The notes under the pieces: generated by a model
What the model was told of the DNA's origin: nothing
Seen by the model: only the letters and a program-made list of their open reading frames with translations
Databases searched by the model: none
Shown here: positions 292-31,485 of the stretch, one piece after another
How the letters are laid out: each line of letters opens with the position of its first letter
Position numbering within the stretch: the stretch's first letter is position 1
From: Omphiscola glabra
Lineage: Eukaryota; Mollusca; Gastropoda; Lymnaeidae
Assembly (NCBI GenBank): GCA_964017045.1
Contig: OZ024794.1
Location: forward strand, 1,319,501-1,383,500
Direction of reading: 5' to 3'
Length of the DNA stretch: 64,000 bases
Program-made: the position numbers and the translations under genes

Positions 292-3200
292 GTGAGTACA
301 GGCAATGTTACAGTGTCCATAGTGGCAGGTGGTGGTACAGTGTTCATAGTGACAGGTAGTGGTACAGTGTTCATAGTGACAGGTAGTGGTAAAGTGTTAA
401 TATTGACAGATAGTGGTACAGTGTTCATGGTGACAGGTAGTGGTACAGAGTTCATAGTGACAGGTAGTGGAACTGTGTTCATAGTGACAGGTAATTTTAC
501 AGTGTTCATAGGGACATGTAGATACAATGTTTAAAGTGACATGTAGTGATACAGTGTTCATACTGACATTTAGGTACACATAGCAACACCTATAAACAAA
601 AATTAAACTGTTCACACATTATATGTTGGGACGAAGTCGTCTTGCACTCAACATCTGAAGTGTTAGATTGCTATTTACTAAAGAAATAGATTGGTGGTGT
701 TTTCTTCTCGGACTCTCTGGGACTCTCTGGAGTGAAGGACTTGATAGCGTTCAGCCTTTCTCTTGGAGTGAAAGTAAAACATGACAGATTTCTCCTAAAT
801 CCTTTGTTGATTCTGTATAGATCACAGATAAGGTCATCCTTAGAGATCACAGATAAGGTCATCCTTAGAGATCACAGATAAGGTCATCCTTAGAGATCAC
901 AGATAAGGTCATCCTTAGAGATCACAGATAAGGTCATCCTTAGAGATCACAGATAAGGTCATCCTTAGAGATCACAGATAAGGTCATCCTTAGAGATCAC
1001 AGATAAGGTCATCCTTAGAGATCACAGATAAGGTCATCCTTAGAGATCACAGATAAGGTCATCCTTAGAGATCACAGATAAGGTCATCCTTAGAGATCAC
1101 AGATAAGGTCATCCTTAGAGATCACAGATAAGGTCATCCTTTCCCTAAAGTTTCAAGTTCTTTTCATTAATGTGGGATGTGATGTCGACCAAAAAAGACA
1201 ACTTTGACAGACAGGTAGGATCTGACAGCCAGGTAGGAACTGAAAGATGTGGATCAGCTGTATCTATATGGTAAGAGCTTGTAAAAATAAAACAGGACTT
1301 GACCGCAGCCGAGCCACCTCACTGCTGTGTGACAAGGCAAGTCAGAGCCACCTCACTGCTTTGTGTTGAGGCAAGTCAGAGCCACCTCACTGCTGTGTGT
1401 TGAGGCAAGTCAGAGTCACCTCACTGCTGTGTGATGAGGCAAGTCAGAGCCACCTCACTGCTGTGTGATGAGGCAAGTCAGAGTCACCTCACTGCTGTGT
1501 GATGAGGCAAGTCAGAGTCACCTCACTGCTGTGTGTTGAGGCAAGTCAGAGTCACCTCACTGCTGTGTGACAAGGCAAGTCAGCGCCATGTCACTGCTGT
1601 GTGACAAGGCAAATCAGAGTCACCTCACAGCTGTGTGATAAGGCAAGTCAGAGCCACCTCACTGCTGTGTGATGAGGCAAGTCAGAGTCACCTCACTGCT
1701 GTGTGTTGAGGCAAGTCAGAGTCACCTCACTGCTGTGTGACAAGGCAAGTCAGCGCCATGTCACTGCTGTGTGACAAGGCAAGTCAGAGTCACCTCACTG
1801 CTGTGTGACAAGGCAAGTCAGCGCCATGTCACTGCTGTGTGACAAGGCAAGTCAGAGTCACCTCACAGCTGTGTGACAAGGCAAGTCAGGGCCACCTCAC
1901 TGCTGTGTGATGAGGCATGTCAGAGCCACCTCACTGCTGTGTGACAAGGCAAGTCAGGACCACCTCACTGCTGTGTGATGAGGCAAGTCACAGAATTCAG
2001 AATCAATTGTCTCCAAGAAAAGCCTGGAACTCACGGTGATTGACTGCATGTCCCCGACTGAAGTTCATAGCAGAAACGACTGGTGTCAGTACACAAGAAA
2101 CATCGAAGTCTGCCCCACACAGTGTACGAAGTGTGTGACATGTTTTTTTCTCCATTTCCTGTAACCCATCGAAGCTGATTCCACTGAGAGTTATTGTGTT
2201 CATTACATTTTTGAACCTACATGAAAATGTCTTTTCCAGTTGTTGTTCCATGCATGCTGCAAACGGATGCCAACTCTTCCGTTATCTGAAAGTCCGAATG
2301 AACACTATAAGTAAACACGAGAAGCTGTAACGTACTCGAGAGGTCAGTAGACTCATCCAGCGGCAGAGATTACCACTGCAAGTTCCTTTAGCTTTCTCAC
2401 GTATCTGTAGCGCTATGTTTTCTCCAAGTTCTTTTTTTCCGCACAAATGAACTTGCCGAAAGGCTGATAATTTCAACCGCGGCGAGTACACTTTTAATAC
2501 CCCCGTATGTTTCCGACACTCCTCTTTCTTTCACCCATTTACAGTTTGTGGTTGTTATCAGACAATAATATATTAGGGGGAATAGGATTCATGGTTATTG
2601 ATTCCTATTTTATTACTCTTTAAACCAGCTTTTCCTTTAAAAAAAAACGACCTCAAATTACTTGGTAGGTTTTTAAATAATGTCATCATTCGTTAACTAA
2701 TTCATATTTTAATATAACTTGTTTTATGCTGATCTGACTTCGAATTTGAACCACATTAAATTTCACCAGTTAATTTATTTTTACCAGTGACAGAATGTGA
2801 TCTGTATGTCCACTCAATATAAATTAATATCTATAGCAAATTAAACTTCGCAAAACAAATTGATAGTAGAATGCAACATAAACGTCGGTCATCTACTTTT
2901 AGAGGTTAACATTTTTGACACCAGCTTAACTCGATCCTACTGGGCACTGCGATGCGAGTAGTTATTGTATTCATCATATATAATTTAAAGTGGATAGCAG
3001 CCAGGAGGTCTCCGAAACTGTGTAGATCTTCTAGTATTCTAAACATAAAATTTAAATTGCATCACAACGTCTAGTGTTCCACACATTTTATCAAGCAAAT
3101 GCAAGTACCATCGGCGGGCCGGATCCTGCTCGCTGGCCGTAGTTTGGTGACTCCTGGTCTAGCGGATATTTCTTTCAGCTTCAGATGTTATCGCAACAGC

Positions 3201-6200
3201 AGAGTGATCAAATTGATAAAAAATGTGATGAGGTCAACCAAAGAGAGAGCTAGTTATCTGACATATTTATGAGGTCAACCAAAGAGAGAGCCAGTGACCT
3301 GACATATTTATGAGGTCAACCAAAGAGAGAGCCAGTGACCTGACATATTTATGAGGTCAACCAAAGAGAGAGCTAGTTATCTGACGTATTTATGAGGAAA
3401 ACCAAAGAGAGAGCTAGTTATCTGACCTATTTATGAGGTCAACCAAAGAGAGAGCCAGTTATCTGACATATTTATGAGGTCAACCAAAGAGAGAGCCAGT
3501 TATCTGACCTATTTATGAGGTCAACCAAAGAGAGAGCTAGTTATCTGACCTATTTATGAGGTCAACCAAAGAGAGAGCAAGTGACCTGACATATTTATGA
3601 GGTCAACCAAAGAGAGATCCAGTGACCTGACATATTTATGAGGTCAACCAAAGAGAGAGCTAGTTATCTGACCTATATATGAGTACAACCAAAGAGAGAG
3701 CTAGTTATCTGACCTATTTATGAGGTCAACCAAAGAGAGAGCTAGTTATCTGACATATTTATGAGGACAACCAAAGAGAGAGCTAGTTATCTGACATATT
3801 TATGAGGTCAACCAAAGAGAGAGCTAGTTATCTGACCTAATTATGAGGTCAACCAAAGAGAGAGCTAGTTATCTGACCTATTTATGAGGACAACAAAAGA
3901 GAGAGCTAGTTATCTGACCTATTTATGAGGTCAACCAAAGAGAGAGCCAGTGACCTGACATATTTTTGAGGTCAACCAAAGAGAGAGCTAGTGATCTGAC
4001 CTATTTATGAGGTCAACCAAAGAGAGAGCTAGTTATCTGACCTATTTATGAGGTCAACCAAAGAGAGAGCCAGTGACCTGACATATTTATGAGGACAACC
4101 AAAGAGAGAGCCAGTTATATGACATATTTATGAGGTCAACCAAAGAGAGAGCTAGTTATCTGACCTATTTATGAGGACAACCAATGAGAGAGCTAGTTAT
4201 CTGACCTATTTATGAGGTCAACCAAAGAGAGAGCCAGTGACCTGACATATTTATGAGGTCAACCAAAGAGAGAGCTAGTTATCTGACCTATTTATGAGGT
4301 CAACCAAAGAGAGAGCTAGTTATCTGACCTATTTATGAGGTCAACCAAAGAGAGAGCCAGTGACCTGACATATTTATGAGTTCAACCAAAGAGAGTGCCA
4401 GTGATCTGACATATTTTTAGGTCAACCAAAGAGATTGCCAATGATCTGACCTATTTATGAGATAAACCAAAAAGAGATGCAGTGATCTGACCTATTTACC
4501 AGGTCTTCCAAAGAGAGAGCCAGTGATCTGACCGTATTAAGTATCGATTCTCTTTTGTCTAGGAAGCTGAAGTTTTTCAAAGATCATTGAGTGAAAAACA
4601 CAAAGATCAAGAAGAGCGCATTTTGCAACGTTTGTTTAAAGTATAATTTGTCTCAAACTCACGAAACATTTGATCCCATTATTTTGAGTAGGGGTTGCAA
4701 GGCTTAGTCAGATTAGTCATACATTGAGAAAGTTTGGAAAAGTTAGTCAAACAATTAGGGGGTGGGGGCCAATATAAAAAGGATGGAAAGCCCTGATTTA
4801 GAGGAGGAATAAGAGAAATTCTAAGTCATCTGTGCATATTAAAGTCATATGGACATATTAATGTCATCTGGGCATATTAATGTCCTCTTGGCATATACAA
4901 GTCATCTTGGTATATTAATGTCATCTGGGCATATTAAAGTCATCTGGGCATATTAAATCATCTGGGAATATTAAAGTCATCTGAGCATATTAAAGTCATC
5001 TGAGCATATTAAAGTCATCTAGGCATATTAAATCATCTAGGAATATTAAAGTCATCTGAGCATATTAACTTCATCTGGGCATATTAAAGTCATCTAGGCA
5101 TATTAAATCATCTAGGAATATTAAAGTCATCTGAGCATATTAATGTCATATGGGCATATTAAAGTCATCTAGGCATATTAAAGTCATCCAGGCATATTAA
5201 AGTCATCCAGGCATATTAAAGTCATCTAGGCATATTAAAGTCATCCAGGCATATTAAAGTCATCCAGGCATATTAAAGTCATCCAGGCATATTAATATCA
5301 TGCAAATTATAAGTTGTAGATTGCTTGCAATGATTGCTGAATTGTATTTACCATATTTGTGACTATTGCATTAAACACATTTGTGACTATTGCATTAAAC
5401 ACATTTGTGACTATTGCATTAAACACATTTGTGACTATTGCATTAAACACATTTGTGACTATTCTATTCAACATATTTGTGACTATTGTAAATATTTACC
5501 ATTCTTGTAACAATTTTTTAAACAATATTTGTGACTATTTTATATACCATAAATGGGATGATTATTTTTACTATCTATTTGACTATTTTAAATATTTACC
5601 AAATTAGTGACTATTTTACTCAAACTCAACCTATATGTCTATTGTATAAACCATATTAGGGATCACTAATTTACAATATTTGTAACTATTGTATTTATCA
5701 TATATATGTGACTTTTGAATGAACAATCTTTGTGACTATTGAATGAACAATCTTTGTGACTATTGAATGAACAATCTTTCTGACTATTGAATGAACAATC
5801 TTTGTGACTAATGAATGAACAATCTTTGTGACTATTTAATGAACAACATTTGTGACTAATGTCTCTCTCAGATCAAGATCCTCAACAAAGAAGGGCAATG
5901 TTCAGAGCGTACACAAGAGATCCAAGTACATGTGTATTTGATGGACAGATACAACCATTACGACAAAAAACTAACACAGACTTGCTACCTTCTTTTGAAT
6001 GAGTCCAACGGCCTGGCTGAAGAATCTATCATAAGGAGTACGGTTAGTTGACCTAATTATTATGTCCAATGTAAGGAGTATGGTTAGTTAACCTAATTAT
6101 TATGTCCATTATAAGGAGTATGGTTAGTTGACCTAATTAGTATGTCCTTTATAACGAGTATGGTCAATTGACCTAATTACTATGTCCAATATAAGGAGTA

Positions 6201-9200
6201 CGGTTAGTTGCCCTAATTATTATGTCCAATGTAAGGAGTATGATTAGTTGACCTAATGATTAGGTCCATTGTAAGAAGTATGGTTAGTTGACCTAATTAT
6301 TATGTCCATTATAAGGACTATGGTTAGTTGACCTAATTAGTATGTCCTTTATAAGGAGTATGGTTAATTGACCTAATTACTATGTCCAATATAAGGAGTA
6401 CGGTTAGTTGCCCTAATTATTATGTCCAATGTAAGGAGTTTGGTTAGTTGACCTAATGATTAGGTCGATTGTAAGGAGTATGGTTAGTTGACATAATTAT
6501 TATGGCCATTATAAGGAGTATAGTTAGTTGACCTAATTATTATGTCCTTTATAAGGAGTATGGTTAATTGACCTAATAATTAGGTCCATTATAAGGAGTA
6601 CGGTTAGTTGACCTAATTATTAGGTCCGATGTAAGGAGATTATTATTATTAACCAAGAAACTGTTATTGCTGTACAAAGCCTGATAAGAAAGGCAAAACA
6701 ATAAATTCAAATGAAATCTGATGAAAACAAATCAAAGCAAATGGTGGTAATAATTATCAGCATGTCTTGTCCAGTGTATGTTGATATCCTCTTGTTAGTT
6801 ACAATTTTTTGTGTGGGATTGGGATGTCATTGTTTAGGGGATTGGGATGTCCTTGTTTGTGGGCTTGTGATGTCCTTGTTTGTGGGACTGTGATGTCCTT
6901 GTTTGCGGGATTGGGATGTCCTTGTTTGTGGGCTTGTGATGTCCTTGTTTGTGGGACTGTGATGTCCTTGTTTGCGGGATTGGGATGTCCTTGTTTGTGG
7001 GCTTGTGATGTCCTTGTTTGTGGGATTCTGATGTCCTTGTTTTTGGGATGTCCTTGTTTCTCAGTTTGAAATAAACATTTTAATTAGAGGATAATTAATG
7101 TAACATTTTTCACACACCACCACACACAACAGCACACCCAACCAAACATCAATCCACATAGCTACACAAGCCGACCCACCAAGCCACACACCAACCCATC
7201 CAGCCACACACCAACCCATCCAGCCACACACCAACCCACCTGGCCAGATACACCAACCCACCAAGCCACACACCAACCCATTTGGCCAGATACACCAATC
7301 CACCAAGCCACACACCAACCCACCTGGCCAGATACACCAACCCACCAAGCCACACACCAACCCATCCAGCCACACACCAACCCACCAAGCCACACACCAA
7401 ACCACCCAGCCAGACACACCAACCCACCTAGCCAGATACACCAACCCACCAAGCCACACACCAACCCACCTGGCCAGATACACCAACCCACCAAGCCACA
7501 CAGCAACCCATCCAGCCACACACCGACCCATACAGCCACACACCAACCCACCCAACCAGATACACCAACCCACCTGGCCAGATACACCAACCCACCATTC
7601 CACACACCAACCCATCCAGCCACACACCAACCCACCCAGCCAGATACACCAACCCACCTGGCCAGATACACCAACCCACCATTCCACACACCAACCCATC
7701 CAGCCACACACTAACCCACCCAGCCAGATACACCAACCCACCTGGCCAGATACACCAACCCACCAAGCCACACACCAACCCACCTGGCCAGATACACCAA
7801 CCCACCAAGATGCCAAGAACTCACACAGCCAAAAAGATACCCAAACACAATGTTAATTATCAAACAACAAAACACGATCAATTTAATGCAACATCCTTAC
7901 CCTAACTATAATTTGCTTGACAAAGGAAAAAGACCATTTCATCACGAAATTTTCAGTTAAAGAATGTGCGCATCCGAGACCCTCCCATGAGACCAGAGAC
8001 CACGCCCCCTTCTGACGATGAGCCTCCAGCTATAGCGACAGACCAAAGCTTGTTCTCAGATCCGGGTGTAACCGTGGCACTGGTTCTCTCCCTGGTAGGC
8101 GGTTGCTGCTGTGCTGGACTTATTACCTTACAGGTGATGGCCATTACTTGACCGAATTAACATAATGCAGGTCATTATCCTACCTTGACCCTAATTAACA
8201 TAATGAAGTTCATAGTTATACCTTGACCTAATGAACATAATGCAGCTGTTGTCATACCTTGACCTAATTAACTTATTGCAGATGATGTCATACTATGAAC
8301 TAAATAACATAATGCACATGATGGTCATACTATGACCTAATTGACATAATGCAGGTGATGGTCATACTATGACCTAATTAACATAATGCAGGTGATGGTC
8401 ATCAGAATACATTGATGAATACATTTTGAATATGGATTCATTTTTTTCAAATTTTTCAAATTTATTTTAAGTTATTACACAGGAAATGAACTAATGAGGA
8501 TTTGTCCCATTTTAGACAAAGGAAAAATGTAAATACATGTATTAAAAAGATGAATTAACTTTTTTTACAGGTGATATTCCGGCGCCGGAACAGAGAACGT
8601 CACAATTTTAATCCAACATTTAACCGTTCGCACAGTGCCTCTAGCCTTGACTCTATTCAGTTGTCATCTGTCACCAAATCGAGACCCAACAGTGGATTGT
8701 TTAACCCAGGTCTTGACCTGACTGACTCTGTAAGTCTTTGAATACAATTAATTCCCTAGCTTCAGAGTATTAATCTCTAGTGACCAATACCTATACTGAC
8801 CAGTAAATATAATGACTAATAACTGTAATGACATATACCTGTAACAACCAATAACTGTATTGACAAATGCCTGTAGTCACCAATATCTGTTAAGACCAAT
8901 TAGTGTAAATACAAATAATTTTAATGAGCAATAACTGTAACAATTTTCAAACGGATTGATCCCAAATTTGTAGAGATTTAGTTTCTGGAAGAAGGAACAA
9001 TTACCTATAATATTGTACCTGTCATGTTGTACCATAATATTAATATTGTACCTGTATATTGTACTATGATATTATTTATATATTACCTGTAATATTGTGC
9101 CTGTAATTATTTATGAACTTGTAATAAATGTGTTTTTACTTACCTTTCCCTAGCTCCAACCAAGCCATCCACTTAATTTCATGCAGTTGTCCAACTTTTG

Positions 9201-18640: not shown

Positions 18641-21600
18641 CTAGAATTGCAGAAATTTTTTGAAAATCAAATAATTTTTTGGTTATTGATACAAAGTGAT
18701 TTAATAATTTTGTTGTGGTGCTTACTGATACAACGTTACATAATAATTCTGTATTAGAAATGAATGAGTTGGAAATTATTGAATAGTGAAGATTTTCAAC
18801 TAAATTCATTTTGATGAAGAGATGTAAGGATGATATCTCTATTAATTACTTCCTGTTGAAGAGTCTCTCTGCACATGGTCTCAGTGTGTTAAAATTATTT
18901 TTATTGTTTTCATAAATTGTAATTAAAAAAGGAAAAGTTAATAGAAGTAATGAAAATATGGAGATGTGTGGTATTAAAAAATTATGGCCCAATCAAACAA
19001 GGGAAGTAACTGGAGATCAAATTAACAAAACATGCTTCATGCTATTCTAGTTAAAGTTCATGAAAAATCTAGAAAAGAGACACAGAATGTTTTGCTTAAA
19101 ACCCTGGTACGAGATTAACAAATTCTGGTATGAGATTAAAAATTCTGGTACGAGATTAACAAATCCTGGTACGAGATTAACAAATTCTGGTATGAGATTA
19201 ACAAATTCTGGTATGAGATTAACAAATCCTGGTACGAGATTAACAAATTCTGGTACGAGATTAACAAATTCTGGTACGAGATTACCAAATTCTGGTATGA
19301 GATTAACAAATTCTGGTATAAGATTAACAATTCTGGTACGAGATTAACAAATCCTGGTACGAGACTAACAAATTCTGGTATGGGAATAAAAAAATTAATT
19401 AAAGTTGTGATTTGTATATGAATAGAATTAAATTAAATATGCAATGCATCATTCGAGAATAAAAAGATTTTCCTCATGTAAAGACAACTAATAAAGAACA
19501 ACACAAAAAGTTATATATTAACAGCTTTCATTAAATAATAATAATTAACCGAGTCATATCCAAAAGGTGGATGACAGTTTAAAAACAATAATTTGATAAC
19601 AAATTTGAGATCAAATAAAAAGAAAAATAATTATAAAAAATCTGGCACCAGCCCATTAAAAAAAAAGGGAAATTTTTTGACCGATCCCTTGCGCAAAGAG
19701 AAACTTATTGATTAGTATGCCAAACTTAATAGTTTGAGAAACGCTGCTATAAAGGATGAAAAGTTTCTAGTTCATTAAATTCTGTGAGAAATAATAATAA
19801 AAATCTTGTTTACCGAACAATTGTTGGAGAAGTTCCAGTGTTAAACAGATGGGCTGTGATTCTGTAGACATGAGATATATTGAGACATGAGACATCAGAT
19901 AGTGAGACACAGAAAAATGAGATATAGAGACAAGAGACACTACATATAGAGACATGGTATATTGAGACATGACATAAGGATATGAGATAGAGAGACACGA
20001 GATATAGAGCCATGAGATATTGAGACATTAGATATTTCTTACTTGAATATTTACACATTCAGCTGAACATTTACACATTTCTCACCTGGACATTTACACA
20101 TTTTACACCTTGTATATTTACCTGAATATTTACATATTTCTCATCTGGATATTTATATATTTCTCACCTGTTTATTAACACATTTTACACCTTGTATATT
20201 TATCTGAATATTTACATATTTCTCATCTGGATATTTATATATTTCTCACCTGTTTATTAACACATTTCTCACCTGGATATTTGTGGACGTCATAAACAAA
20301 GGATTCTAAAATATGTCTACAATCAGGGGCCATTAACTGCTTCATCATATCAGCGTAACTCTGGAGCTCCCCCCTGGTTAGGGCGCCCATGGCTCCGAAG
20401 TCAACGATAACATCAAAGTTTCCCTCTACAGAGCTATGTGGGCGGAGACAAAACATAACAGATAGAGGACAGACATAAAATTCTAATCTTAAATTTGATC
20501 AGTAGTGAGCAGAGTGTTGAAATCTATGCAGCAATATGAAATACTTATTTGTAACACTACAGTTATTTGTAACACTACAGTTATTTGTAACACTACAGTT
20601 ATTTGTAACACTACAGTTATTTGTAACACGACATTTATTTGTAACACTACAGTTATTTGTAACACTACAGTTATTTGTAACACTACAGTTATTTTTAACA
20701 CTACAGTTATTTGTAACACTACAGTTATTTGTAACACTACAGTTATTTGTAACACTACAGTTATTTGTAACACTACAGTTATTTGTAACACTACAGTTAT
20801 TTGTAACACTACATTTAATTGCCAAACTTTTGACACCTTAGCAGCTGAATTATGTTGCTTGCACAGTTGGGGAAACTGCTAGTTTTAATTTAAATATTAT
20901 ATTATATACTTCATAACTCGATCAAGATGCCCCATCTCGGATAAACACTACCCACAATGGCTAAACACTGCCCGACCTGGTTAAACACTGCCCACGCTGG
21001 TTAAACACTGCCCACCCAGGTTAAACACTATCCACCCACGTTAAACACTGCCCCACCCAGGTTAAGCACTGTGTACAATGGTTAAACACTGTCCCACCCA
21101 GGTTAAACCCTTCCTACACTGGTTAAACACCGCCCACCCAGGTAAAACACTGCCCACCCAGATTAAACACTGCTCCGCCCAGGTTAAACACTGTGTACAA
21201 TGGTTAAACACTGTCCCACCCAGGTTAAACCCTTCCTACACTGGCCAATAAATATAGAAAAATTAACCAAACCATCAAAAAGGGTATGAGAAGGGCAAAG
21301 AAGAACTGGATTGAAGAGCAATGCTACGACATTGAAAATTGCTTGAAGAAAAACAATAGCAAAAAGGCATACCAGTTGGTGAAAGAACTAACCACTGCAA
21401 AACAAGGGCGTAGTACTACCATACAAGATAAAAATGGCAAATGTTTGATCGAGGAAAATGATATCCTAAAAAGATGGACTGAATACTGCTCAGAGCTGTA
21501 TAATGAAAATATAAAGATAGACTCAGAGATCCTTAATGTCCCCCCAGCAACGGGCAATGAAAGCTTCCCCATTCTCCGTGCAGAAGTAGAAGCAGCAGTC

Positions 21601-24600
21601 CAAGCACTCCAAATAGGAAAGGCCGCAGCAGTAGATAATATCCCTGCCGAGTTAATGAAACAGGGAGGAGAAACAATGATAAATGCCCTAACCAATATTT
21701 GTAACAAAATATGGCTAACAGGGGAATGGCCCAAAACATGGACCCAATCTCTCATCATCACCCTCCCCAAGAAAGGTAACCTACAGCTATGCCAAAACTA
21801 TCGCACCATTAGCCTAATAAGCCACCCAAGCAAGGTCATGCTCAAGGTCATACTGAACCGACTAAGACCGTATGCCGACAGAATCATTGCTGAAGAACAG
21901 GCGGGCTTTAGGCAAGGCCGTGGCACTACTGAGCAGATCCTAAACCTCCGGATACTATGTGAGAAATATGCTCAACACCAACAAAACCTATACCACGTCT
22001 TTGTGGATTTCAAGAAGGCATTCGACAGGGTTTGGCATGCTGCTTTATGGGCCACCATGAGGCACTACAACATCAACACAAACTTAACAAGAATGATAAG
22101 AAGCCTTTATGATAAGGCAACCAGTGCAGTCTTCTTCAACAATAACATCGGAGAATGGTTCAAGACCACAGTTGGAGTACGACAAGGCTGCTTGCTCTCC
22201 CCCACCCTGTTCAACATCTTCTTAGAGAGAATTATGTCATATGCACTAGAAACGCATGTAGGGACAGTCAGCATTGGTGGCAGAACGATCACCAATCTAC
22301 GTTTTGCGGATGACATAGACGGACTGGCGGGAAGCGAGGAAGAGCTAGCCAACCTAGTAAAGAGTCTCGACAAGACTTCATCGACCTTTGGCATGCAAAT
22401 CAGTGCAGAAAAGACAAAAATGATGACGAATAGCACTAATGGCATCACCACTGAAATTAAGGTCGGAGAGGAAAGATTAGAGACAGTTGGCAGCTTCAAG
22501 TACCTCGGAGCAATAGTATCGGAACAAGGCTCCAGGCCCGAATTAATGGCCAGGATTGCGCAGACCACGACAGCACTAAAGAGGCTCAAGAAAATATGGA
22601 GCGACAAAAATATAGCCCCCAGCACCAAAATCAGGCTGATGCGCTCATTAATCCTCTCCATTTTCTTATATGCCTGTGAGTCCTGGACATTAACAGCAGA
22701 ACTTGAAAGGAAAATAGAGGCGATGGAGATGAGATGTTACAGAGGCATTCTTGGCATCTGCTATAGAGACCACATCAGCAATGAGCAAATAAAAGAAAGG
22801 ATACGGCAGGCAATTGGGCAATACGATGACCTCCTGACGTCTGTTAAAAAGCGCAAACTTGAGTGGTATGGCCACGTGACCAGAAAACAAGGGCTCGCCA
22901 AAGAGATCTTGCAGGGCACTACTAGAGGAGGGAGAAGAAGAGGAAGACAAAGAAAAAGATGGGAAGATAATTTCAAAGAATGGACTGGATTAACTAGGCG
23001 ATGCTATGCGTAGGGCAGAAGACCGAGAGGAATGGAGAAGAATAGTGTACATGTCATCTGTGGCGCCCCAACGGTCGAAGGAATACGGGACCTGATGATG
23101 ATGATGACACTGGTTAAACACCGCCCACCCAGGTAAAACACTGCTCCACCCAGGTTAAACACTGCTCCACCCAGGTAAAACACCGCCCACCCAGGTTAAA
23201 CACTGCCCCACCCAGGTTGAACACTATCCACCCAGGTTAAAGAATGTCCCACCCAGGTTAAGCACTGCCTACAAATTTGTTAAACACTACCCCACCCAGG
23301 TTAAACACGGTCTACAATGGTTAAATACTGTCTATGGTTAAACACTGCTACATCCCGGTTAAAATCTGCCCACAATGTTTACAAACTTCCCCACCCAGGT
23401 AAGAACTGCCCAAACATGTTTAAGAGTTGCACCACCCTGGACATAAAGACTGCCTACCAATTATTCTTTCACCGTCAGGAATACTAAAGAGTTGCTTTCC
23501 CACTTAAAGAAATCAATGTAAAACTCTTACGTCTTGAAGTCAAAGAAATCACAGCAATAGATCTTGTAGGTCTTGTCCTTGCTCTGAGAACAGACAACAA
23601 TTATATCATCAAATATCTCCGTGCTCAGAAAGCAAACAATAATTGTATCATTAAATATCTTCTTGAGTCAAACTATAAAATGTATGTTCAAATTAAAAAA
23701 AAAAAATTCATTTAAAGATCTCTGTCTTTGATTTGATTAATTTATAGCTTTATAAAAGAACTGATGGTTACAAAAAAGCAAACAAATTATTGAATCTAAT
23801 TTAGACATTATATTATTTAATATAAGAGTTCGTAGGACTAATTTATGAGAAACATTTATTGATATTGTAAGTATGATGAATAAAAGAATTAATTTTAAGA
23901 GATATATGTAAAAAGTTTGAGGCTTTACATGTGCTTATTTTAAAAAATTAATTGAATAATTGTGTCGTTAATTGGGTGGGGAATTGTGTCATGAATTGCG
24001 TCACACATTGTGTCATAAATTGCAAGGACACACGTACTTGATATAAAGTCCCTTTTACATCCGGGCACGATTCTTTAGTAAAAGAAATATTGTGTTTTCC
24101 GTAGAAGGATCTAACTGCCAAAGCTGAGCACTCAATTCCTACGACTTCATGCCCCATATCACCGAAGCTGTTAGAGAAGACACAAACTTACAAAACAACG
24201 AGCACAACGTGGATTGCTTCTAGTTGTTTTTTTTAATATTTAAGATTGATGATACACTGTAAACAAAAGACAATCTTAAATATGGATAAATTCAACACAT
24301 ACAGAACATAAATTCATAGCACATGTGTTGTATGGTGCTGTCTCTCGAAAGCAGAGCTCCTCAACCGATGTGCTGCGACACGATGTTAGATGTGCTGTGA
24401 CACGATGTTAGGTGTGCTGTGACACGATGTTAGGTGTGCTGTGAGAAGATGTTAGGTGCGCTGTGACACGATGACAGGTGTGCTGTGAGACGATGTTAGG
24501 TGTATTGTGACACCCTGTTGGGTGTGTTGTGACATGATGTTAGGTGTGTTGTGAAAAGATGTTAGGTGCATTGTGACACGATGTTAGGTGTGCTGTGATA

Positions 24601-25668
24601 CGATGTTAGGTGTGTTGTGATGTTATGTTTGTTGATACACGATGTTAGGTGTGTTGTGACAGGCTGTTAGGTGTGCAGCGGCCGAATCCCCCCAAAGAAG
24701 AATAGGAAGGGGGGTACAAACTCGTGGAGACTATTTAAATTGGTTAAAGCAAGGTGGTCAATGAATGGTAAATGAATGGTTAATAACAAGCTGTCAATTA
24801 GCTGAGCACATTCGGATGTTTACATTTGGTGAGTCAAGTGACAAAGTCATCATCTTGTGAAGCCAAGAAGAAAATATGTCTCATTTGCTTTGGTCTTTGA
24901 CCGCATGCTTTTCATGACTGTATTTTTTAATACTTGGACCAAGTGTTGATTGTTTGCTGGTTCAAAATTATTTGTCTAGTCTGTCGTCGAACCCAAGCCA
25001 ACTAAGACACATCCTGTCAAAATAGAGGGACACAAACCAAACACAAACTAGGACACATCCTGTCAAAATAGAGGGACAAAAACCCAAAACAAACTAGGAC
25101 CCATCCTGTCAAAATAGATGGACACAAACCCAACACAAACTAGGACCCATCCTGTCAAAATAGAGGGACACAAACCCAGCACAAAGTAGGACCCATCCTT
25201 TCAAGGCAGAGGGACACAAACTATTTCATCTGCTTTGTTAACAGCGTCCAACATATTGGTTGACCTTGCAACATTTTAAAATCATTTTTTGCTCCCCCCA
25301 CACCCATTTCCACCCGCCACCCCCCCCCCTAAAAAAAGAACACAGTAATAATGTAGGTACGTGTAATCAACAGTAAACCATTATTTCTTTCTTGGTTTAG
25401 CGTTTTAATCGTGGTATGCCACAAAAGTCTGGAATGATCTTGGTGTGCCGTGAGGGCATAACGTTTGCGGACCCCTGCTCTAAAGAATCCTTTCATTGAT
25501 TCAAAACACCACTGACTCTAGCAAATTGAATCAAAACACCACTGACACTAGAAACTTGAATCAAAACACAACTGACACTAGAAACTTGATTATTTAAAAA
25601 ATTCACATACATCTTTTTTAAAAGTCATGGACCGAACAAAATTCAAACATGCTTTACAACAATGACTT

Positions 25669-25700
<32 letters not shown>

Positions 25701-28700
25701 TGTATGTATGTATGTATGTATGTATGTATGTATGTATGTATGTATGTATGTATGTATGTATGTATGTATGTATGTATGTATGTATGTATGTATGTATGTA
25801 TGTATGTATGTATGTATGTATGTATGTATGTATGTATGTATGTATGTATGTATGTATGTATGTATGTATGTATGTATGTATGTATGTATGTATGTATGTA
25901 TGTATGTATGTATGTATGTATGTATGTATGTATGTATGTATGTATGTATGTATGTATGTATGTATGTATGTATGTATGTATGTATGTATGTGTGTATGTA
26001 TGTGTGTATGTATATATGTATGTATGTATGTATGTCATCTTTCCGTCTACGAGAGACGATAGATTTATCTTTTCTGATTGCAGCTCTTGGTGTGGCTAGT
26101 GAGACCGATCCTCGTGTGGCAGTCTCTTTTGCATGTCCCACACACGAATGCGGTGGAGCAGTGTCTTCTTGCCTTTCTCTGCGCTCTCTTTACAGCTGCT
26201 TCCGCCCTGTAGAGCTCCTCGGCACGTAGCGGTCCTTCCTTCACGATGCCCCGCCATGTGGAGCGATCCTCCGCCAGGTCCTCCCAATTTGAGTTGTTGA
26301 TGTTGGCCGCCTTCATGTCTCTTTTGCATATGTCTAACTATCTGAGACGAGGCCGTCCAACTGACCTTTTCCCTGTCGCCAGCTCGTTGTACAGCACGTC
26401 CTTAGGTATGCGACCAGGTTGCATTCGCTTGACGTGCCCAAGCCAGCGGAGGCGTCTTTGGATTAAAATGGCTGGGACGCTGCACATATATACAATCTGT
26501 TGAAAGGGTGGAATTGACGTCATTTAGAATCGACAGTGGAAGGGTATAAATGACGTCCTTTAGAGACGACCAACGGAAGCGTGTAAATGACGTCATTTAG
26601 AGACGACCAATAAAAGAGTAGAAATGACGTCATTTGAAACGTAAATTAGTTTCGTGTAAATACAATCATTAAGAGGCGTAAATAGAACGGATGTAAAAAA
26701 CGTCCTTTAGAGACGATCAATGAAATGATAGCAATGACGTCCTTTGGGGAGGACCAGTGAAAGGGTAGAACACCAAAATTACGTGTAAATGTCAAATGAG
26801 TTTCCACACATCGGTAAAAGAATCTTCGCCCTCGTCTTGCCTTGGATGTACTTGTCTAAATGTTCTTGGAGTTTGCTGAAACAACATGGTCAATGAATCA
26901 ACATGTCAATTAAACAACATGGTCAATGAATCAACACGTCAATGAAATAACATGGTCAATGAATCAACACGTCAATGAATCAACATGGTCAATGAATCAA
27001 CATGTCGGTCTTTCTAGCAAAGATTCTAAATTAACATTATTACTGGCTACGACAGACTCAAATAGACGACGGCAGAATAGAAAGACTAGGATAGACTAGA
27101 ATAGATCGGACTAGACTAGAAGACTAGAATATACTATGATAGACTAGGACAGACTAGGATATAATGGAATAGATTATGATAGACTACGACAGACTAGAAT
27201 ATTCTAGGACAGACTAGAATAGCCTAAAATAGACTAATATCGACTAGAATAGACTAGGATAGACCACGAAAGACTAGAATAGAATAGGACAGACTAGAAT
27301 AGACTAAGACAGAATAGAATAGATCAGAAGGATCAGAATAGACTATGATAGACTACGACAGACTAAAAGACTAGAATAGACTATTATAGACCATGACAGA
27401 CTAGAATAGATTAGGACAGACTAGAATAGACAAGTACATGCTAGAATAGACTAGTACATACTAGAATAGACTAGTACATACTAGAATAGACTAGTACATA
27501 CTAGAATAGACTAGTACATACTAGAATAGAGTAGTATAGACTAGAATAGACTAGTACATACTAGAATAGACTAGTACAGTCTAGAATAGACTAGTACAAT
27601 TGGAATAGACTAGTACATACTAGAATAGACTATTACATACTAGAATAGACTAGTAAAAACTAGAATAGATTAGTACAGACTAGAATAGACTAGTTCAGAC
27701 TAAAGTTGACATTTTGTCTAATTGTCTAAATTTGATATTTTTCTAATTTCCTAAAGTTAATATTTTGCCTAATTTTCTGAAGTTGATATTGTGGCGTGTC
27801 CAGACCTGTAGTCTGTGTAGGTAGTGTCCAGACAATAGTCAACCCGTAAGGGATGATGGCGTTGGTTTTATGACCTAAGACCAACTGACCAAACAAAGTG
27901 TCAAGCTTGTCAGATTGCCCGCGACGGAATGGCGGCGTTGGTTTATGACCTATTACGCGGTGTGTTACATAAGAAGGGGATTGGGGCCCTGTGAACTTGG
28001 GACCTATAAAAGGGACAGTAGGACGGGACTAAGGGAACTCAGCCGGGGAGAACTCAGCCGGGCAGGCAGGTGGACGGACGGGAGTTAGAGAGGGACCGTG
28101 ACAGTCGGAGCGGAGTACGACAAAGAGAGTGAGAGAAAGTGAAAACAAAGGATAAGACAAATAAATGTTCAAAGACTATAACGATCATTGAGTTGTCATA
28201 TTGGTGCAGACGAGAGACAGAGTGAATAAGGTTGCAAACTAATTAGAGTGCAGAGACGACGAGGGTTCACTACAATGGTGGCAGCGGTGGGATTGTAACC
28301 TTGCAACGACTCTGAAGAGACACAATTTTTAGCCTGAGATGAAAAGTACAAGGAGCGGAACAACTACATCAAGAACAATGAATTCACAGTACTTAAACAA
28401 CCTCCCGACATACAGTGGCACTTCAACATGGCACACGTTCATCATCCAGTTCGAAATGTCTGCGAATTTTTTCAAGTGGAGTGAGGAAGAGAAACTCTTT
28501 TATCTCAGCTTTGCATTGAAAGACGCTGCGGCTGAATTTGCTTTCAGTGAGTTAGGTGAAGCTGAGAGAGAGAGACGTACGTCGAATTTAAAGATGCCCT
28601 GGCGAATCGATTCAGAGACCACAGAACGCCAGCATTTTTCCAAAATGTTTTGGAAAAACGCACATTTCTGAAATCCGAGACTAGTACAGAGTATGCTACT

Positions 28701-31485
28701 GACATCAAGAAATTGGTAGCGAAAAGTTTTCCAACGGCAGACCAGGCTACACGAGATGCCATTGGGTTCAAACAGTTTCTTCGTGGACTGCCTGACCAGT
28801 CTATGGTGACACAAGTTGGCACTATGTCAGTTCCTCCCACAGTAGACAAGGCGAGAGCTGCCCTTGACCAGATAATAAATCTCAGGGACAATGTGTGTGT
28901 ACCTGGACAGCAAGTGGCGTCAATGGGTACAGACCACTTGACAAGAGAAATAAGTGGCCTGAGACAGGACTTTAGAGCATTCATCACATGGCAGAGGGAG
29001 TCAGTCAACCAGTCGGCAAGAGAAACGGGAGGTGTTCGGAGGGCGGAACCCAGGTGTTTCGTGTGTGACCGAATCGGTCATATTGGCCTTACTTGTCCAA
29101 ACAGGAAGAAAGGAGGAGAAATTACTGATCGGCTGAAACTAAACCACATTTCATCAAATGGTCAAAACATTCGTCCTAGTGCTGTGTTCGTGCCTGTGAA
29201 AGTGTGTGGTGTTAGGACAGAATTTCTAATGGACACGGGTGCGGCGGTGACCGTTATTTCGAGAAAACGATTTTTTGAAATTCCACGACATCAGCGACCT
29301 AAGATTCATCACCATTTCTCACCCGTGAATCTACAGACAGCAACTGGAGCACCAGTGAATCTTTGTGGGGTGAGTGACGTTAAATTATTGATTGGAGATG
29401 AAGTGTATCCCTGGACAGTGTATGTGGCAGATATAGCAGAAGACGGTTACCTGGGTTTTGACTTTTTGAGTCATTACAATTTTTCTTTCTCAGTCAGCAA
29501 AGGTCTGAGCTTGGATTCTCACAATGTGCCGATTGTGGCTAAATATCCGAGTGCAAAGAATACGCCAGATCAAAGGTATTTTAGTATCTCCAAACGTCCC
29601 CAGTTCTCAGCACCATTCAGTGTGAGAGTGAACACGGTCACTACACACAACAAAAGACAGCGTCCAGGTAAAAGCCAGTGGACAAGCATGGCTCCTGTCC
29701 AGGATAACGTGTTACCCCGTCCTGAGATGCCATCCATGAAGCTCAGGAATGTGGGTAATAAATCAATCAAGTTGTGTGGTGAGGTAAATTCTAAGTGGGA
29801 GAAAATGGAGGCAATTCCAGATAGACCGGTGAAGCGACAGAAAAGTGACCCTGATGCTCGAGCAGTAGTGCGCCCTTTTAACGTGGGTGACGTAGTCCAG
29901 TGTTCAGACTCAACGAACAAAGTGAGTCCAAACCAGAAGTTGAGCACAATTAATAAGTGGTGTGGTCCTCGTGTCATCAGTCGAAAGCTACGTAATAATT
30001 TATTCGAGATTCAAGGAGAGGGAAGAATGACATGCAAAATTATTCATCATGAAGGCCACTATAGGATGAAGCATTATGACAATGATCCACCAGACTGGAT
30101 TTTAAAGTTACAAACAGCTTGCCTAAGAGACAATTTGATGGAAACCACTCCTGAGCTTCCACGAGTTCTGCAGGAAGCGTAGTGTGTTCTGGGACACTTA
30201 GATTCATCTTATAGCATGACATTTATTGTATAAATAGATTTATAGTGAATTAATGTTGATGGTTATTTCTCGTGGCACCAGATGGTGACGGTTGGATAAA
30301 TGGATACATGGATAATGTTCTAATCATGTAATGATTAATTTTAATTTGCGGTCGAAAGATTGTTTAATTTTATAACATGTTTTTCTTGGTGACCTCGTAT
30401 GAACTTTAAGAATGAAGGGTTTGAGTTAGTTTAAAGTGTTTTTGTAACCAACATTTATTTTTCCTGCATTTGGAACTTTAGTCGGTTCTGACATTATACT
30501 TGACATGTTTTCATTATGATTTTTGATTAGCTGGATAATTTAGTTTTCAACTTTATGTAATGTGCTACTGCCTGTTAATGTATTTTCTAAATGTTTTACT
30601 TTCCGTTGATTCTCGAAGTTTTGTCTTATTCCTTGTTCTACCATAATTGTCTGATTGTGTGAATGTAAAAATGCTCCGACTGTGACCCAAGCTGACTCTG
30701 ACCTTGACCAGGAGTTAGGAGACCGTAAATGGGATGACGTAGCGTGCATTACTTTGTACTGTTTCTAATTGAACGCTGAAGGTCTAAGTCACTTAAAGCC
30801 ATTTAGAGATCAGTCACCCGTAATTGTAGTGAGGATGTTACGTAATGTCGGGACGACATTTTTTTGTAAGATGGGGGTATTGTGGCGTGTCCAGACCTGT
30901 AGTCTGTGTAGGTAGTGTCCAGACAATAGTCAACCCGTAAGGGATGATGGCGTTGGTTTTATGACCTAAGACCAACTGACCAAACAAAGTGTCAAGCTTG
31001 TCAGATTGCCCGCGACGGAATGGCAGCGTTGGTTTATGACCTATTACGCGGTGTGTTACATAAGAAGGGGATTGGGGCCCTGTGAACTTGGGACCTATAA
31101 AAGGGACAGTAGGACGGGACTAAGGGAACTCAGCCGGGGAGAACTCAGCCGGGCAGGCAGGTGGACGGACGGGAGTTAGAGAGGGACCGTGACAGTCGGA
31201 GCGGAGTACGACAAAGAGAGTGAGAGAAAGTGAAAACAAAGGATAAGACAAATAAATGTTCAAAGACTATAACGATCATTGAGTTGTCATATTGGTGCAG
31301 ACGAGAGACAGAGTGAATAAGGTTGCAAACTAATTAGAGTGCAGAGACGACGAGGGTTCACTACAATATTTTGGTCTAATTGCCTAAAGTTGATCTTACG
31401 GGTGCGGTTTGTTGACATAAAATTGTGCCATTGATCCGGAGTCCCAATGCTGTTGCCATAGGACAACTCTGTCAGAGGCGGCCAT
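18459..31485 (-). CDS. TPMT: Thiopurine S-methyltransferase-like protein, complete, 7 exons
   Basis: Exons in transcript order: 31485-31400, 26875-26783, 24167-24038, 23583-23531, 20433-20273, 19861-19814, 18640-18459. Together 753 nt, 250 residues plus stop, close to human TPMT (245). All phases agree. TPMT enzymes move a methyl group from S-adenosylmethionine to a thiol in the cytosol. Visible motifs: N-terminal WQQHW, ILLPMCGNSFDI (the PLCGK-type SAM-binding segment, with the Lys replaced), GHEVVGIE, IYCCDFFDF, FDVIVDFGAMGAL (family FDxIWDRGAL, here D-F-G) and ELLQQLFG. The D-R-G to D-F-G change and the loss of Lys leave substrate open. No TATA box is obvious upstream. Introns 1, 2 and 4 host transposable elements. 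It converges on the phosphatase gene. Family call firm, substrate not known. Confidence 0.87.
19105..19385. repeat. 21-bp array
   Basis: Unit tggtacgagattaacaaatt + c, about 13 copies. TPMT intron 6. Confidence 0.92.
19814..19861 (-). CDS. TPMT: TPMT-like exon 6
   Basis: 48-bp exon, acceptor gtctacag, donor gtaaac. Encodes SQPICLTLELLQQLFG, like the EEVRRLFG helix of the family. An alternative AG eight bases inside gives a frame that does not match the family. Confidence 0.8.
19870..20035. repeat. GAGATA-rich array
   Basis: gagatatagagacatgag-type units of about 17-18 bp, diverged. Confidence 0.8.
20040..20285. repeat. Array covering the TPMT-like exon 5 donor
   Basis: On the - strand, units such as tatccagatgagaaat and aacaggtgagaaat repeat the exon 5 end and donor (tatccag/gtgagaaat). 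About 10 units. Confidence 0.85.
20273..20433 (-). CDS. TPMT: TPMT-like exon 5
   Basis: 161 bp, acceptor cccacatag, donor gtgaga. Encodes FDVIVDFGAMGALTRGE and CRHILESFVYD. The final TATCCAG is repeated in the array downstream of the donor. Confidence 0.9.
20545..20816. repeat. 18-bp array
   Basis: Unit cactacagttatttgtaa, 15 copies, very uniform. Confidence 0.95.
20930..21245. repeat. ~20-bp array, left part (split by LINE)
   Basis: ggttaaacactgcccaccca-type units. The same array resumes after the LINE at 23108. Confidence 0.9.
21246..23108 (+). mobile_element. 5'-truncated non-LTR retrotransposon (LINE)
   Basis: The element enters in mid-coding sequence at about 21246, lacks the endonuclease, carries the RT frame 21286-23013, and ends in a GATGATGATG tail. 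It is inserted inside a minisatellite whose units continue on both sides. Flanking acactgg before and after suggests a 7-bp target-site duplication. It lies antisense in intron 4 of the TPMT-like gene. Confidence 0.85.
21286..23013 (+). CDS. LINE reverse transcriptase (575 codons, endonuclease missing)
   Basis: The reverse transcriptase copies its RNA at a nicked target. Visible RT blocks: NYRTISLISHPSKVMLKVI, EEQAGFRQGRGTTEQI, HVFVDFKKAFDRVWH, GVRQGCLLSPTLFNIFLE, then NLRFADDIDGLAG, where the YxDD box is FADD with both Asp kept. After that come the thumb (FKYLGAIVSEQGS) and the C-terminal KRKLEWYGHVTRKQG with a basic RRRGRQRKRWED run. No internal stop. A one-base slip near 22995 ends the frame early: the family's C-terminal DAMRRAEDREEWRR continues in the next frame. 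The start shown is simply the first Met after truncation. The clade resembles the endonuclease-RT elements common in lophotrochozoans and cnidarians; exact clade uncertain. Confidence 0.9.
   Translation: MRRAKKNWIEEQCYDIENCLKKNNSKKAYQLVKELTTAKQGRSTTIQDKNGKCLIEENDILKRWTEYCSELYNENIKIDSEILNVPPATGNESFPILRAEVEAAVQALQIGKAAAVDNIPAELMKQGGETMINALTNICNKIWLTGEWPKTWTQSLIITLPKKGNLQLCQNYRTISLISHPSKVMLKVILNRLRPYADRIIAEEQAGFRQGRGTTEQILNLRILCEKYAQHQQNLYHVFVDFKKAFDRVWHAALWATMRHYNINTNLTRMIRSLYDKATSAVFFNNNIGEWFKTTVGVRQGCLLSPTLFNIFLERIMSYALETHVGTVSIGGRTITNLRFADDIDGLAGSEEELANLVKSLDKTSSTFGMQISAEKTKMMTNSTNGITTEIKVGEERLETVGSFKYLGAIVSEQGSRPELMARIAQTTTALKRLKKIWSDKNIAPSTKIRLMRSLILSIFLYACESWTLTAELERKIEAMEMRCYRGILGICYRDHISNEQIKERIRQAIGQYDDLLTSVKKRKLEWYGHVTRKQGLAKEILQGTTRGGRRRGRQRKRWEDNFKEWTGLTRRCYA
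23108..23455. repeat. ~20-bp array, right part
   Basis: Continuation of the array at 20930-21245. In TPMT orientation it begins about 75 bp after the exon 4 donor. Confidence 0.9.
23531..23583 (-). CDS. TPMT: TPMT-like exon 4
   Basis: 53-bp exon, acceptor ctgttctcag, donor gtaaga. Encodes SKDKTYKIYCCDFFDFK, the family YCCxxFDF strand. Confidence 0.87.
24038..24167 (-). CDS. TPMT: TPMT-like exon 3
   Basis: 130 bp, acceptor tctctaacag, donor gtacgt. Encodes FGDMGHEVVGIE and FYGKHNISF, matching the GHxVVGVE strand of TPMT. Confidence 0.9.
24370..24680. repeat. ~21-bp array inside the hAT element
   Basis: gatgttaggtgtgctgtgac units, about 14, derived from the sequence next to the left terminal repeat. 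Confidence 0.88.
24990..25225. repeat. ~46-bp array inside the hAT element
   Basis: actaggacccatcctgtcaa + aatagagggacacaaacccaac, 5 units. Confidence 0.88.
25667..26035. repeat. TATG microsatellite, about 90 units
   Basis: Almost uninterrupted tatg for about 370 bp with a few tgtg and tata changes at the right end. Abuts the LINE 3' end on the - strand. Confidence 0.97.
26040..26523 (-). mobile_element. LINE 3' end with C-terminal zinc finger, degenerate
   Basis: On the - strand: LRWLGHVKRMQPGRIPKDVLY and SVGRPRLR, one in-frame stop, then DICKRDMKAANIN, WEDLAEDRSTWR and FVCGTCKRDCHTRIGLTSH, a C2H2-like finger. This is the C-terminus of a LINE RT protein. It is followed directly by the TATG microsatellite, which looks like its expanded tail. 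Confidence 0.8.
26500..26760. repeat. 37-bp array of CRE-like sites
   Basis: Period about 37 bp, unit begins tgacgtcatttagagacg. Exact TGACGTCA (CREB/ATF palindrome) at 26515, 26588 and 26625, with variants (TGACGTCC) at 26551 and further on. In TPMT intron 2, downstream of exon 2. Confidence 0.75.
26783..26875 (-). CDS. TPMT: TPMT-like exon 2
   Basis: 93 bp, acceptor gtttcag, donor gtaatt. Encodes KLQEHLDKYIQGK and the SAM-site segment ILLPMCGNSFDI. Confidence 0.87.
26880..27005. repeat. ~19-bp array upstream of TPMT-like exon 2
   Basis: catggtcaatgaatcaaca-type units, 7 copies, reaching the acceptor of exon 2. Confidence 0.85.
27040..27710. repeat. 10/20-bp array
   Basis: ctagaatagactagtacata and shorter relatives, more than 30 units. 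Confidence 0.92.
27711..27789. repeat. ~30-bp array split by the LTR element
   Basis: Units like aagttgatattttgtctaat continue at 31366-31399 up to the exon 1 donor of the TPMT-like gene. On the - strand the array starts gtaagatcaactttaggc, that is, at the donor. Confidence 0.82.
27790..28274 (+). repeat. 5' LTR
   Basis: Starts tgtggcgtgtcc, ends gttcactaca. Carries TATAAAAG at 28005-28012 and AATAAA near 28160. Matches 30881-31365 except at one base. Confidence 0.95.
28005..28012 (+). promoter_or_regulatory. LTR TATA box
   Basis: tataaaag inside the 5' LTR, repeated at 31096-31103 in the 3' LTR. Places the U3/R border about 25-30 bp downstream. Confidence 0.7.
28276..28294 (+). other. Primer-binding site, tRNA-Leu
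   Basis: tggtggcagcggtgggatt, one base after the 5' LTR, is complementary to the known 3' end of animal tRNA-Leu (ATCCCACCGCTGCCACCA). Confidence 0.85.
28339..28671 (+). CDS. gag N-terminal frame, broken by a frameshift
   Basis: Starts at the first ATG after the primer site. LPTYSGTSTWHTFIIQFEM and EEKLFYLSFALKDAAAEF match the capsid region of Ty3-type Gag, which packages element RNA. The Gag sequence leaves this frame at the GA run around 28563-28576 and resumes in the frame of the next ORF, consistent with a two-base slip. The last ~30 codons here are out-of-frame. Confidence 0.75.
   Translation: MKSTRSGTTTSRTMNSQYLNNLPTYSGTSTWHTFIIQFEMSANFFKWSEEEKLFYLSFALKDAAAEFAFSELGEAERERRTSNLKMPWRIDSETTERQHFSKMFWKNAHF
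28650..30182 (+). CDS. gag C-terminus, CCHC knuckle, protease, GPY/F-like module; RT and integrase core absent
   Basis: The 510-codon open frame continues Gag. A zinc knuckle CFVCDRIGHIGLTC (C-x2-C-x4-H-x4-C) lies near residue 137. An aspartic protease follows, with FLMDTGAAVTVIS near 190 and GYLGFDFLSHYNF near 270. After a linker, residues 420-490 read FNVGDVVQC, KWCGPRVISRKL and IIHHEGHYRM, like the GPY/F module at the integrase C-terminus. RT (YxDD), RNase H and integrase HHCC/DDE should lie between protease and GPY/F but are absent, though the frame is open. The element must depend on a relative for copying. The true translation start lies upstream, beyond the frameshift. Confidence 0.83.
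   Translation: MEKRTFLKSETSTEYATDIKKLVAKSFPTADQATRDAIGFKQFLRGLPDQSMVTQVGTMSVPPTVDKARAALDQIINLRDNVCVPGQQVASMGTDHLTREISGLRQDFRAFITWQRESVNQSARETGGVRRAEPRCFVCDRIGHIGLTCPNRKKGGEITDRLKLNHISSNGQNIRPSAVFVPVKVCGVRTEFLMDTGAAVTVISRKRFFEIPRHQRPKIHHHFSPVNLQTATGAPVNLCGVSDVKLLIGDEVYPWTVYVADIAEDGYLGFDFLSHYNFSFSVSKGLSLDSHNVPIVAKYPSAKNTPDQRYFSISKRPQFSAPFSVRVNTVTTHNKRQRPGKSQWTSMAPVQDNVLPRPEMPSMKLRNVGNKSIKLCGEVNSKWEKMEAIPDRPVKRQKSDPDARAVVRPFNVGDVVQCSDSTNKVSPNQKLSTINKWCGPRVISRKLRNNLFEIQGEGRMTCKIIHHEGHYRMKHYDNDPPDWILKLQTACLRDNLMETTPELPRVLQEA
30183..30880 (+). other. LTR element 3' noncoding spacer
   Basis: About 700 bp between the stop and the 3' LTR. AT-rich, no coding similarity seen, ends in the purine run that would prime plus-strand synthesis. 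Confidence 0.7.
30881..31365 (+). repeat. 3' LTR
   Basis: Same length and ends as the 5' LTR, preceded by the purine-rich aagatgggggta. Its end is 34 bp from the TPMT-like exon 1 donor. Confidence 0.95.
31400..31485 (-). CDS. TPMT: TPMT-like exon 1 with start codon
   Basis: ATG is the complement of 31483-31485. Encodes MAASDRVVLWQQHWDSG. The WQ..W motif is the usual TPMT N-terminus. Donor gtaaga is only 34 bp from the 3' LTR of the inserted retrotransposon. Confidence 0.85.

Follow-up and report, generated by a model that had tools for sequence, protein, structure and literature searches.

Minisatellite arrays repeating the donor junction in introns of the snail Omphiscola glabra, and their likeness to the mirages of amphioxus

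Three genes in a window rich in tandem repeats

The stretch of DNA analyzed here (the window; 64,000 nucleotides, C1:1,319,501-1,383,500) belongs to an assembly of the snail Omphiscola glabra of 744.8 Mb in 37 contigs. Tandem arrays called by TRF make up 36% of the window, and tandem repeats account for 47% of the sequence of its 21 introns. Three genes have been modelled in it:

128..16911, plus strand: RPTP gene, 12 exons found (Pfam Y_phosphatase, open frame, spliced alignment)
18459..31485, minus strand: TPMT gene, 7 exons (Pfam TPMT, open frame, spliced alignment)
51689..59613, plus strand: serine-protease gene, 5 exons found (His and Ser motifs read by eye)

The RPTP gene likely extends leftward past the window edge. 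The domains Y_phosphatase and TPMT were found in preliminary translations of the RPTP and TPMT genes, and the joined exons of RPTP, TPMT and the serine protease give one uninterrupted reading frame per gene. The TPMT protein has only two matches, the closer one in Lymnaea stagnalis (87% identity, 89% query coverage) and the other in Biomphalaria glabrata (57%). The phosphatase protein was matched, in order, by a best match at 60%, by Candidula at 55%, by Bulinus at 78% over 59%, and by a pearl oyster. Of the 17 introns of RPTP and TPMT, 14 were recovered by spliced alignment with the proteins of relatives, each at its modelled coordinates; the script used took its splice-site weights from these very introns. 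RPTP introns 1 and 2 and TPMT intron 5 were not recovered in this way and are based on frame and on the relatives' proteins as read by eye; the start of RPTP exon 8 (12787) was likewise set by the relatives' proteins. No insertion was seen in the relatives' proteins at the aligned junctions.

The distance from the window to the end of contig C1 is 1.3 Mb. The first 10 kb of this contig (C1:1-10000, L001) are marked as tandem repeat throughout and start with ACCCTA units of the telomere type. Many tyrosine-phosphatase exon matches, representing an expanded family, lie on contig C3 at ~9.2-12.8 Mb and at 26.8-27.5 Mb. Of five C3 loci examined, four have 0-3% tandem repeat and one has 17.5%, compared with the 36% of the window.

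Array starts and junction copies at donors

Array starts were placed on a TRF scale on which +1 is the first intron base and the size of a negative value is the number of exon bases included minus one. An earlier note on this DNA had linked arrays to RPTP donors 1, 2, 3, 5, 7, 9, 10 and 11. All eight were confirmed to start within 30 nt of the donor, at +7, -11, -2, +27, -20, +30, -5 and +1, respectively; RPTP4, RPTP6 and RPTP8 start at +52, +121 and +111. Thus 8 of 11 RPTP donors carry such an array, and for RPTP alone p is 0.0005-0.004. TPMT donors 1 and 5, also named in that note, are array-linked at +6 (after an LTR element is excised) and at -9, and TPMT donor 3 adds an array at +16. The 37-bp array said to lie close behind the TPMT2 donor starts there under relaxed scoring (+13) and farther away under default TRF (+148). 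Taken alone, from whole-window calls with the insert left in, TPMT has an array at 1 of 6 donors and no excess. Whole-window TRF lost three features, namely the stub at TPMT1, the array at TPMT3 and, at TPMT2, the part of the diverged array nearest the donor. Per-intron TRF runs, relaxed scoring and the empty-site sequence were therefore added and were applied alike to donors and acceptors. The serine protease, described earlier as lacking donor arrays, has 4 complete introns; by default no array starts within 30 nt of their donors (0/4), and under relaxed scoring one does (1/4; SP1, +11).

Expected counts were obtained by re-placing arrays at random inside their own introns. Under default settings, 11 of the 21 window donors have an array within 30 nt against 5.0-6.1 expected (p 0.001-0.005) and 6 of 21 acceptors against the same 5.0-6.1 (p 0.35-0.63), these p-values, like those for RPTP alone, being post hoc because the region was chosen by eye. 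Relaxed scoring gives 13/21 donors and 7/21 acceptors, each against 6.1-7.5 expected.

Several arrays have units that take in exon bases:

12033..12385, plus strand: RPTP intron 7 donor array, 32-bp unit x 11, donor 12054
14130..14880, plus strand: RPTP intron 10 donor array, 27-bp unit x 28, donor 14136
6031..6645, plus strand: RPTP intron 2 donor array, 40-bp unit x 15, donor 6043
8131..8402, plus strand: RPTP intron 3 donor array, 37-bp unit x 7.4, donor 8134
20034..20282, minus strand: TPMT intron 5 donor array, 23/82-bp units, donor 20272

In the RPTP7 unit, 21 exon bases encoding ...INANYIT (a motif conserved in PTPs) are joined to 11 intron bases. Its 11 junction copies all carry GT, 10 of the 11 match 15/15, and 8 of the 11 are identical across the whole 32-bp unit; the intron holds an exact 31-nt copy of the junction. 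The same exon end reads TYINANYVTG in Bulinus and SYINANYITG in the protein P0003. The RPTP10 unit consists of 6 exon bases, CTGCAG (the end of the exon for the VHC-S active site), plus the donor, and GT is present in 27 of its 28 junction copies. The VHCS motif is present in most solved PTP domains compared. The RPTP2 unit combines 12 exon bases with the donor, and GT is kept in 14 of its 15 junction copies; the TPMT5 unit combines the 10 exon bases AAATATCCAG with the donor. The RPTP3 unit takes in 3 exon bases (CAG) and did not pass the strict exon-copy test described below.

Junction arrays are also found outside the window. One lies on C5 near 26.588 Mb (L015 ~1,630-1,890) with a 59-bp unit of 52 exon and 7 intron bases; another lies in a phosphatase gene on C13 near 33.502 Mb (L024 ~7,925-8,130) with a 39-bp unit of 27 exon and 12 intron bases. 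The C5 array belongs to a different phosphatase gene, where it occupies the active-site (HC-S) intron that corresponds in position to RPTP intron 10. The C13 locus is ~24 kb from the end of its contig. The exon-inclusive units straddle the donor with 3-52 exon bases, which are protein-coding, and 7-34 intron bases. Unit lengths of 23-59 bp are in the minisatellite range, and GT is kept in most junction copies, AG not always preceding it.

The other donor-linked arrays of the two genes, and an element inserted into one of them, are as follows:

298..568, plus strand: RPTP intron 1 array, 27-bp unit x 10, +7 after donor 292
9261..9420, plus strand: RPTP intron 5 array, 12-bp unit, start +27
13460..13516, plus strand: RPTP intron 9 array, 20-bp unit x 2.8, start +30
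15399..15889, plus strand: RPTP intron 11 array, 31-bp unit x 15.8, starting exactly on the donor GTAAGT
26501..26770, minus strand: TPMT intron 2 diverged 37-bp array, +13 after donor 26782 under relaxed scoring (default TRF, 26504-26635)
23958..24022, minus strand: TPMT intron 3 diverged 12-bp array, +16 after donor 24037
31366..31394, minus strand: stub of the TPMT intron 1 26-bp array, +6 after donor 31399, severed from the rest (27700-27790) by an LTR retroelement
27786..31365, minus strand: LTR retroelement within the TPMT1 array, bounded by long direct repeats (LTRs), aspartyl protease matches

The RPTP1 units hold CAGGTAG-like words and have no significant exon copy, and the RPTP11 array has zero exon bases and did not pass the strict test. 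In the reconstructed empty site, the TPMT1 array runs from +6 to +120. The two LTRs of its retroelement agree over ~480 bases with few differences (not counted exactly), so the element probably entered recently, after the array had formed. Other repeats and mobile sequences were noted in the TPMT introns. A reverse-transcriptase ORF (RVT_1, 21229-23010) lies between similar blocks of 20-41 bp repeats (20928-21244 and 23112-23308), and so was likely inserted into that array of intron 4. Intron 2 holds a TATG tetranucleotide array of 91 copies (25671-26035), adjoined by a minus-strand frame (26068-26337) that, by eye, reads like a transposon protein.

Junction recurrence and array proximity in 70 introns

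The observations in the window were compared with a held-out sample of 240 kb around 15 phosphatase loci, hand-picked from 32 matches. These loci were chosen by protein similarity and not by repeats; they represent one gene family and are not a random genome sample. They gave 52 spliced alignments, of which 3 low-scoring ones were removed to leave 49 introns. The earlier note had predicted a peak of arrays 0-30 nt after donors, which did not appear in this sample. By default, an array lies within 30 nt of 2 of 49 donors, or of 3 if one that starts at -52 is included, where 2.8-3.8 would be expected; 5 of 49 acceptors have a nearby array against 2.9-3.8. Under relaxed scoring the counts are 2/49 donors and 9/49 acceptors against 5.4-7.4 expected. 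The acceptor p is 0.05-0.32 (5 against 2 donors by default, 9 against 2 relaxed). For all 70 introns under default settings, arrays are found at 13 donors against 7.9-9.9 expected (p 0.01-0.13) and at 11 acceptors against 7.9-9.8 (p 0.10-0.37). Array proximity alone was rejected as a signal because it fails in the held-out introns.

A strict test was set on the junction rather than on the array, counting an intron only when its own junction recurs within it with a score above those of all 300 dinucleotide shuffles. Donors passed in 6 of 70 introns and acceptors in 0 of 70 (one-sided Fisher p 0.014); exon-interior controls passed in 1/70 and 0/70. The six positives are RPTP2, RPTP7, RPTP10 and TPMT5, precisely the junctions whose amplification had been proposed from the letters of the window, plus the C5 and C13 loci, so that 2 of 6 lie outside it. 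A count on 60 introns before the low-score filter likewise gave 6 donors and 0 acceptors. An exon-copy match of TPMT1 sits within the LTR element and was left out of the count. Junction arrays are thus real, linked to the junction and present elsewhere in the genome. The asymmetry between donors and acceptors rests on 6 versus 0.

The pairing of exons with their own introns was also permuted. Exon tails are more like the start of their own intron than other introns in the window (p 0.0002, n=21), in the held-out introns (p 0.004, n=49) and in all 70 (p 0.00005, the lowest value that 20,000 permutations can give). No such likeness links exon heads to the end of the intron before them, whether in the window (p 0.87), the held-out introns (p 0.96) or all introns (p 0.97). 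What survives of the directional, junction-linked repeat birth first proposed for this region is a directional start of some arrays from the junction itself; a general proximity of arrays to donors does not. When the six strict positives are removed, the excess is gone (p 0.88, n=64). There is therefore no diffuse background of older cases at this sensitivity, and the event is all-or-none, at under a tenth of donors. Exon tails are also slightly more similar than expected to the far end of the intron they adjoin (p 0.048, n=70), which a duplication model does not predict.

Acceptors had been described as seldom covered by arrays, and two arrays of the TPMT gene bear on this point:

23576..23660, minus strand: array overlapping the TPMT intron 3 acceptor and 8 exon bases, 42-bp unit x 2, 81% matches
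26877..27006, minus strand: 17/33-bp array ending 2 bases before the TPMT intron 1 acceptor, zero exon bases

Acceptors get nearby arrays at the chance rate; what they lack is exon-inclusive units (0/70 by the strict test). The description holds for such units, to which the TPMT3 acceptor array is a weak exception, and not for array proximity.

These results bear on an explanation by ordinary repeat density, in which introns that are about half tandem repeat have arrays that abut or overlap donors by chance and expand to the exon edge. The repeat content of the window and its introns is in its favor, as is the lack of a proximity excess at held-out donors (2/49). Furthermore, the spanning of donors in the window is not extreme when arrays are allowed 25 nt of exon overlap (p 0.06-0.08). 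However, chance abutment cannot place the tail of an exon in its own intron, which is what was found at 6/70 donors, 0/70 acceptors and 1/140 controls. Repeat density is thus largely refuted for the six junction-copy arrays and stands for others like RPTP1, RPTP5, RPTP9 and TPMT3; as an account of the whole, it is quite unlikely.

Probable mirages, their proposed origin and the fate of donor copies

The junction arrays are probably mirages, in which minisatellite units repeat the donor junction within its own intron. Slippage-like tandem duplication at the exon end is the likely source of the copies, with expansion of the array coming later. The exon part of the units codes for residues conserved in relatives, so the exon is likely the source and the intron copies its derivatives. 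The mutation itself would be either slippage or an unequal exchange, in a genome where tandem repeats already abound. Splicing would then use the first, exon-proximal donor, and donor duplications would be kept probably because this donor stays intact. Acceptor duplications would be purged because they offer an upstream AG and because most unit lengths shift the frame; the near-absence of an acceptor counterpart may reflect such purging. Acceptor duplications have been published in amphioxus, and therefore cannot be harmful in every case.

Human minisatellites mutate in a polar manner, with variation concentrated at one end of the array that is set by a flanking recombination hotspot. The donor-linked arrays of the snail may be similar in that their variation tends to gather toward one end. 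They differ in that the polar end would be the constrained exon, and the snail data consist of copy divergence only. Polarity was scored in arrays of at least 4.5 copies, a set that excludes the C5 and TPMT1 arrays and includes arrays without exon copies. The exon-side copies of donor-linked arrays are nearest the consensus (n=10, mean difference 0.032, p 0.027), whereas other intronic arrays have no such polarity (n=34, p 0.35); the two groups differ at p 0.044. No clear polarity was seen in the RPTP2, RPTP3, RPTP10 and L026 arrays. Identity to the exon copy drops with distance in RPTP7 (1.00 to 0.88), in the C13 array (0.97 to 0.90) and over the copies of the C5 array (0.97, 0.90, 0.80, 0.73), and does not fall in RPTP2 and RPTP10. 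That donor-linked arrays are most homogeneous by the exon, as if growing from the exon outward, is suggestive only. It hints that new copies may arise beside the exon, which, being constrained, would remain an unchanging template. A bolder form of this idea holds that the exon is a permanent template: coding constraint would fix the exon end while arrays are re-seeded and grow into the intron, a one-way process that would carry exon sequence into introns, spare acceptors and lengthen introns across an animal lineage. This bolder form is tentative and, in our judgment, unlikely.

The same polarity could be read as the work of a donor-directed mutator, through which transcription-linked breakage, R-loops or U1-bound RNA-DNA hybrids would duplicate 5' splice sites specifically. 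Such a process would fit the restriction of junction copies to donors in the strict test and the peak of homogeneity at the exon end. It would also fit the G-richness of the sense strand in 8 of 9 donor-linked arrays (p 0.016), but this skew is not significant once the donor words are deleted (p 0.21). Arrays are common elsewhere (36 other intronic and 34 non-genic, against 9 donor-linked), and the purging of acceptor duplications would give the direction without any special mutator. A donor-directed mechanism is thus very unlikely.

Selection for extra donor copies was another suggestion of the earlier note, in which spare or decoy donors would buffer donor mutations or tune splicing. GT is kept in 14/15 copies of RPTP2, 11/11 of RPTP7 and 27/28 of RPTP10, the GT pair alone is slightly above the unit-average conservation in 4 of 5 arrays, and most RPTP11 copies fit U1 better than the real donor (8/9 versus 7/9), as such selection might produce. 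However, in the 5 arrays the nine donor columns show no more conservation than the rest of the unit, and their ranks among cyclic unit shifts are mid-range in all five (28/40, 15/32, 18/27, 18/31 and 23/37). Of 72 repeat donors examined, none gave an in-frame open extension; 2 were stop-free but out of frame. This selection is disfavored and highly unlikely. Because the donor columns are not specially conserved and 0/72 copies are open in frame, the copies look like by-products that splicing must ignore. Since 8 of the 11 RPTP7 copies are identical over the 32-bp unit, local sequence cannot mark the real donor there. If the genes are functional, as the intact frames suggest, the exon-proximal donor would be chosen by position or by exon definition.

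The earlier note knew of no name for such structures. One exists: the "mirages" of amphioxus, described in two papers as minisatellite-like tandem duplications across exon-intron boundaries (PMC3087553; PMC3902484). Mirages are reported in Adh3, the globins BflGb6 and BflGb9, PGBD5 and TnC; the Adh3 units are cited as 10-72 bp with many copies bearing AG/GT signals, and copy number is unstable between haplotypes or somatically (PMC3087553; PMC3902484). The globin paper places duplications at both 5' and 3' boundaries and gives RT-PCR that suggests splicing is undisturbed (PMC3087553). As compared with these accounts, the snail units similarly span the exon-intron boundary, are of minisatellite length and have many GT-bearing copies. 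The snail is a mollusc and not a cephalochordate, and its arrays reach 28 copies, against 6 and 3 in the two BflGb6 haplotypes. By the strict test they occur on the donor side only, whereas the amphioxus mirages are on both sides. The snail arrays are known from one genome assembly, those of amphioxus from RT-PCR and haplotypes as well.

Among the matches listed, no mollusc mirage was found by title and abstract opening. A paper on gastropod hemocyanin introns discusses proto-splice sites without words beginning "repeat" or "minisatellite" (PMC7931591), and the text examined of an earthworm paper describes first-intron minisatellites with no junction link (PMC12783039). In two other papers, the Rogers model derives intron gain from tandem duplication at AG|GT proto-splice sites (PMC2891723; PMC4974935). 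The snail arrays resemble that process as set out there, being local tandem duplications that include a splice junction, but their copies sit in an existing intron and no new intron was seen. The snail arrays are therefore a known kind of structure in a phylum that is likely new for mirages. The new parts, donor restriction and growth at the exon end, are supported and rest on few cases.

To conclude, mirages are extended past cephalochordates to a snail, and are either widespread or arise wherever minisatellite birth is intense. With up to 28 copies of a donor in one intron, the arrays offer natural experiments on how the spliceosome selects a single one. For RPTP7, a wrong choice of donor would shift the frame or meet a stop. 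Junction arrays may also lengthen introns and supply sequence from which new splice junctions could form.
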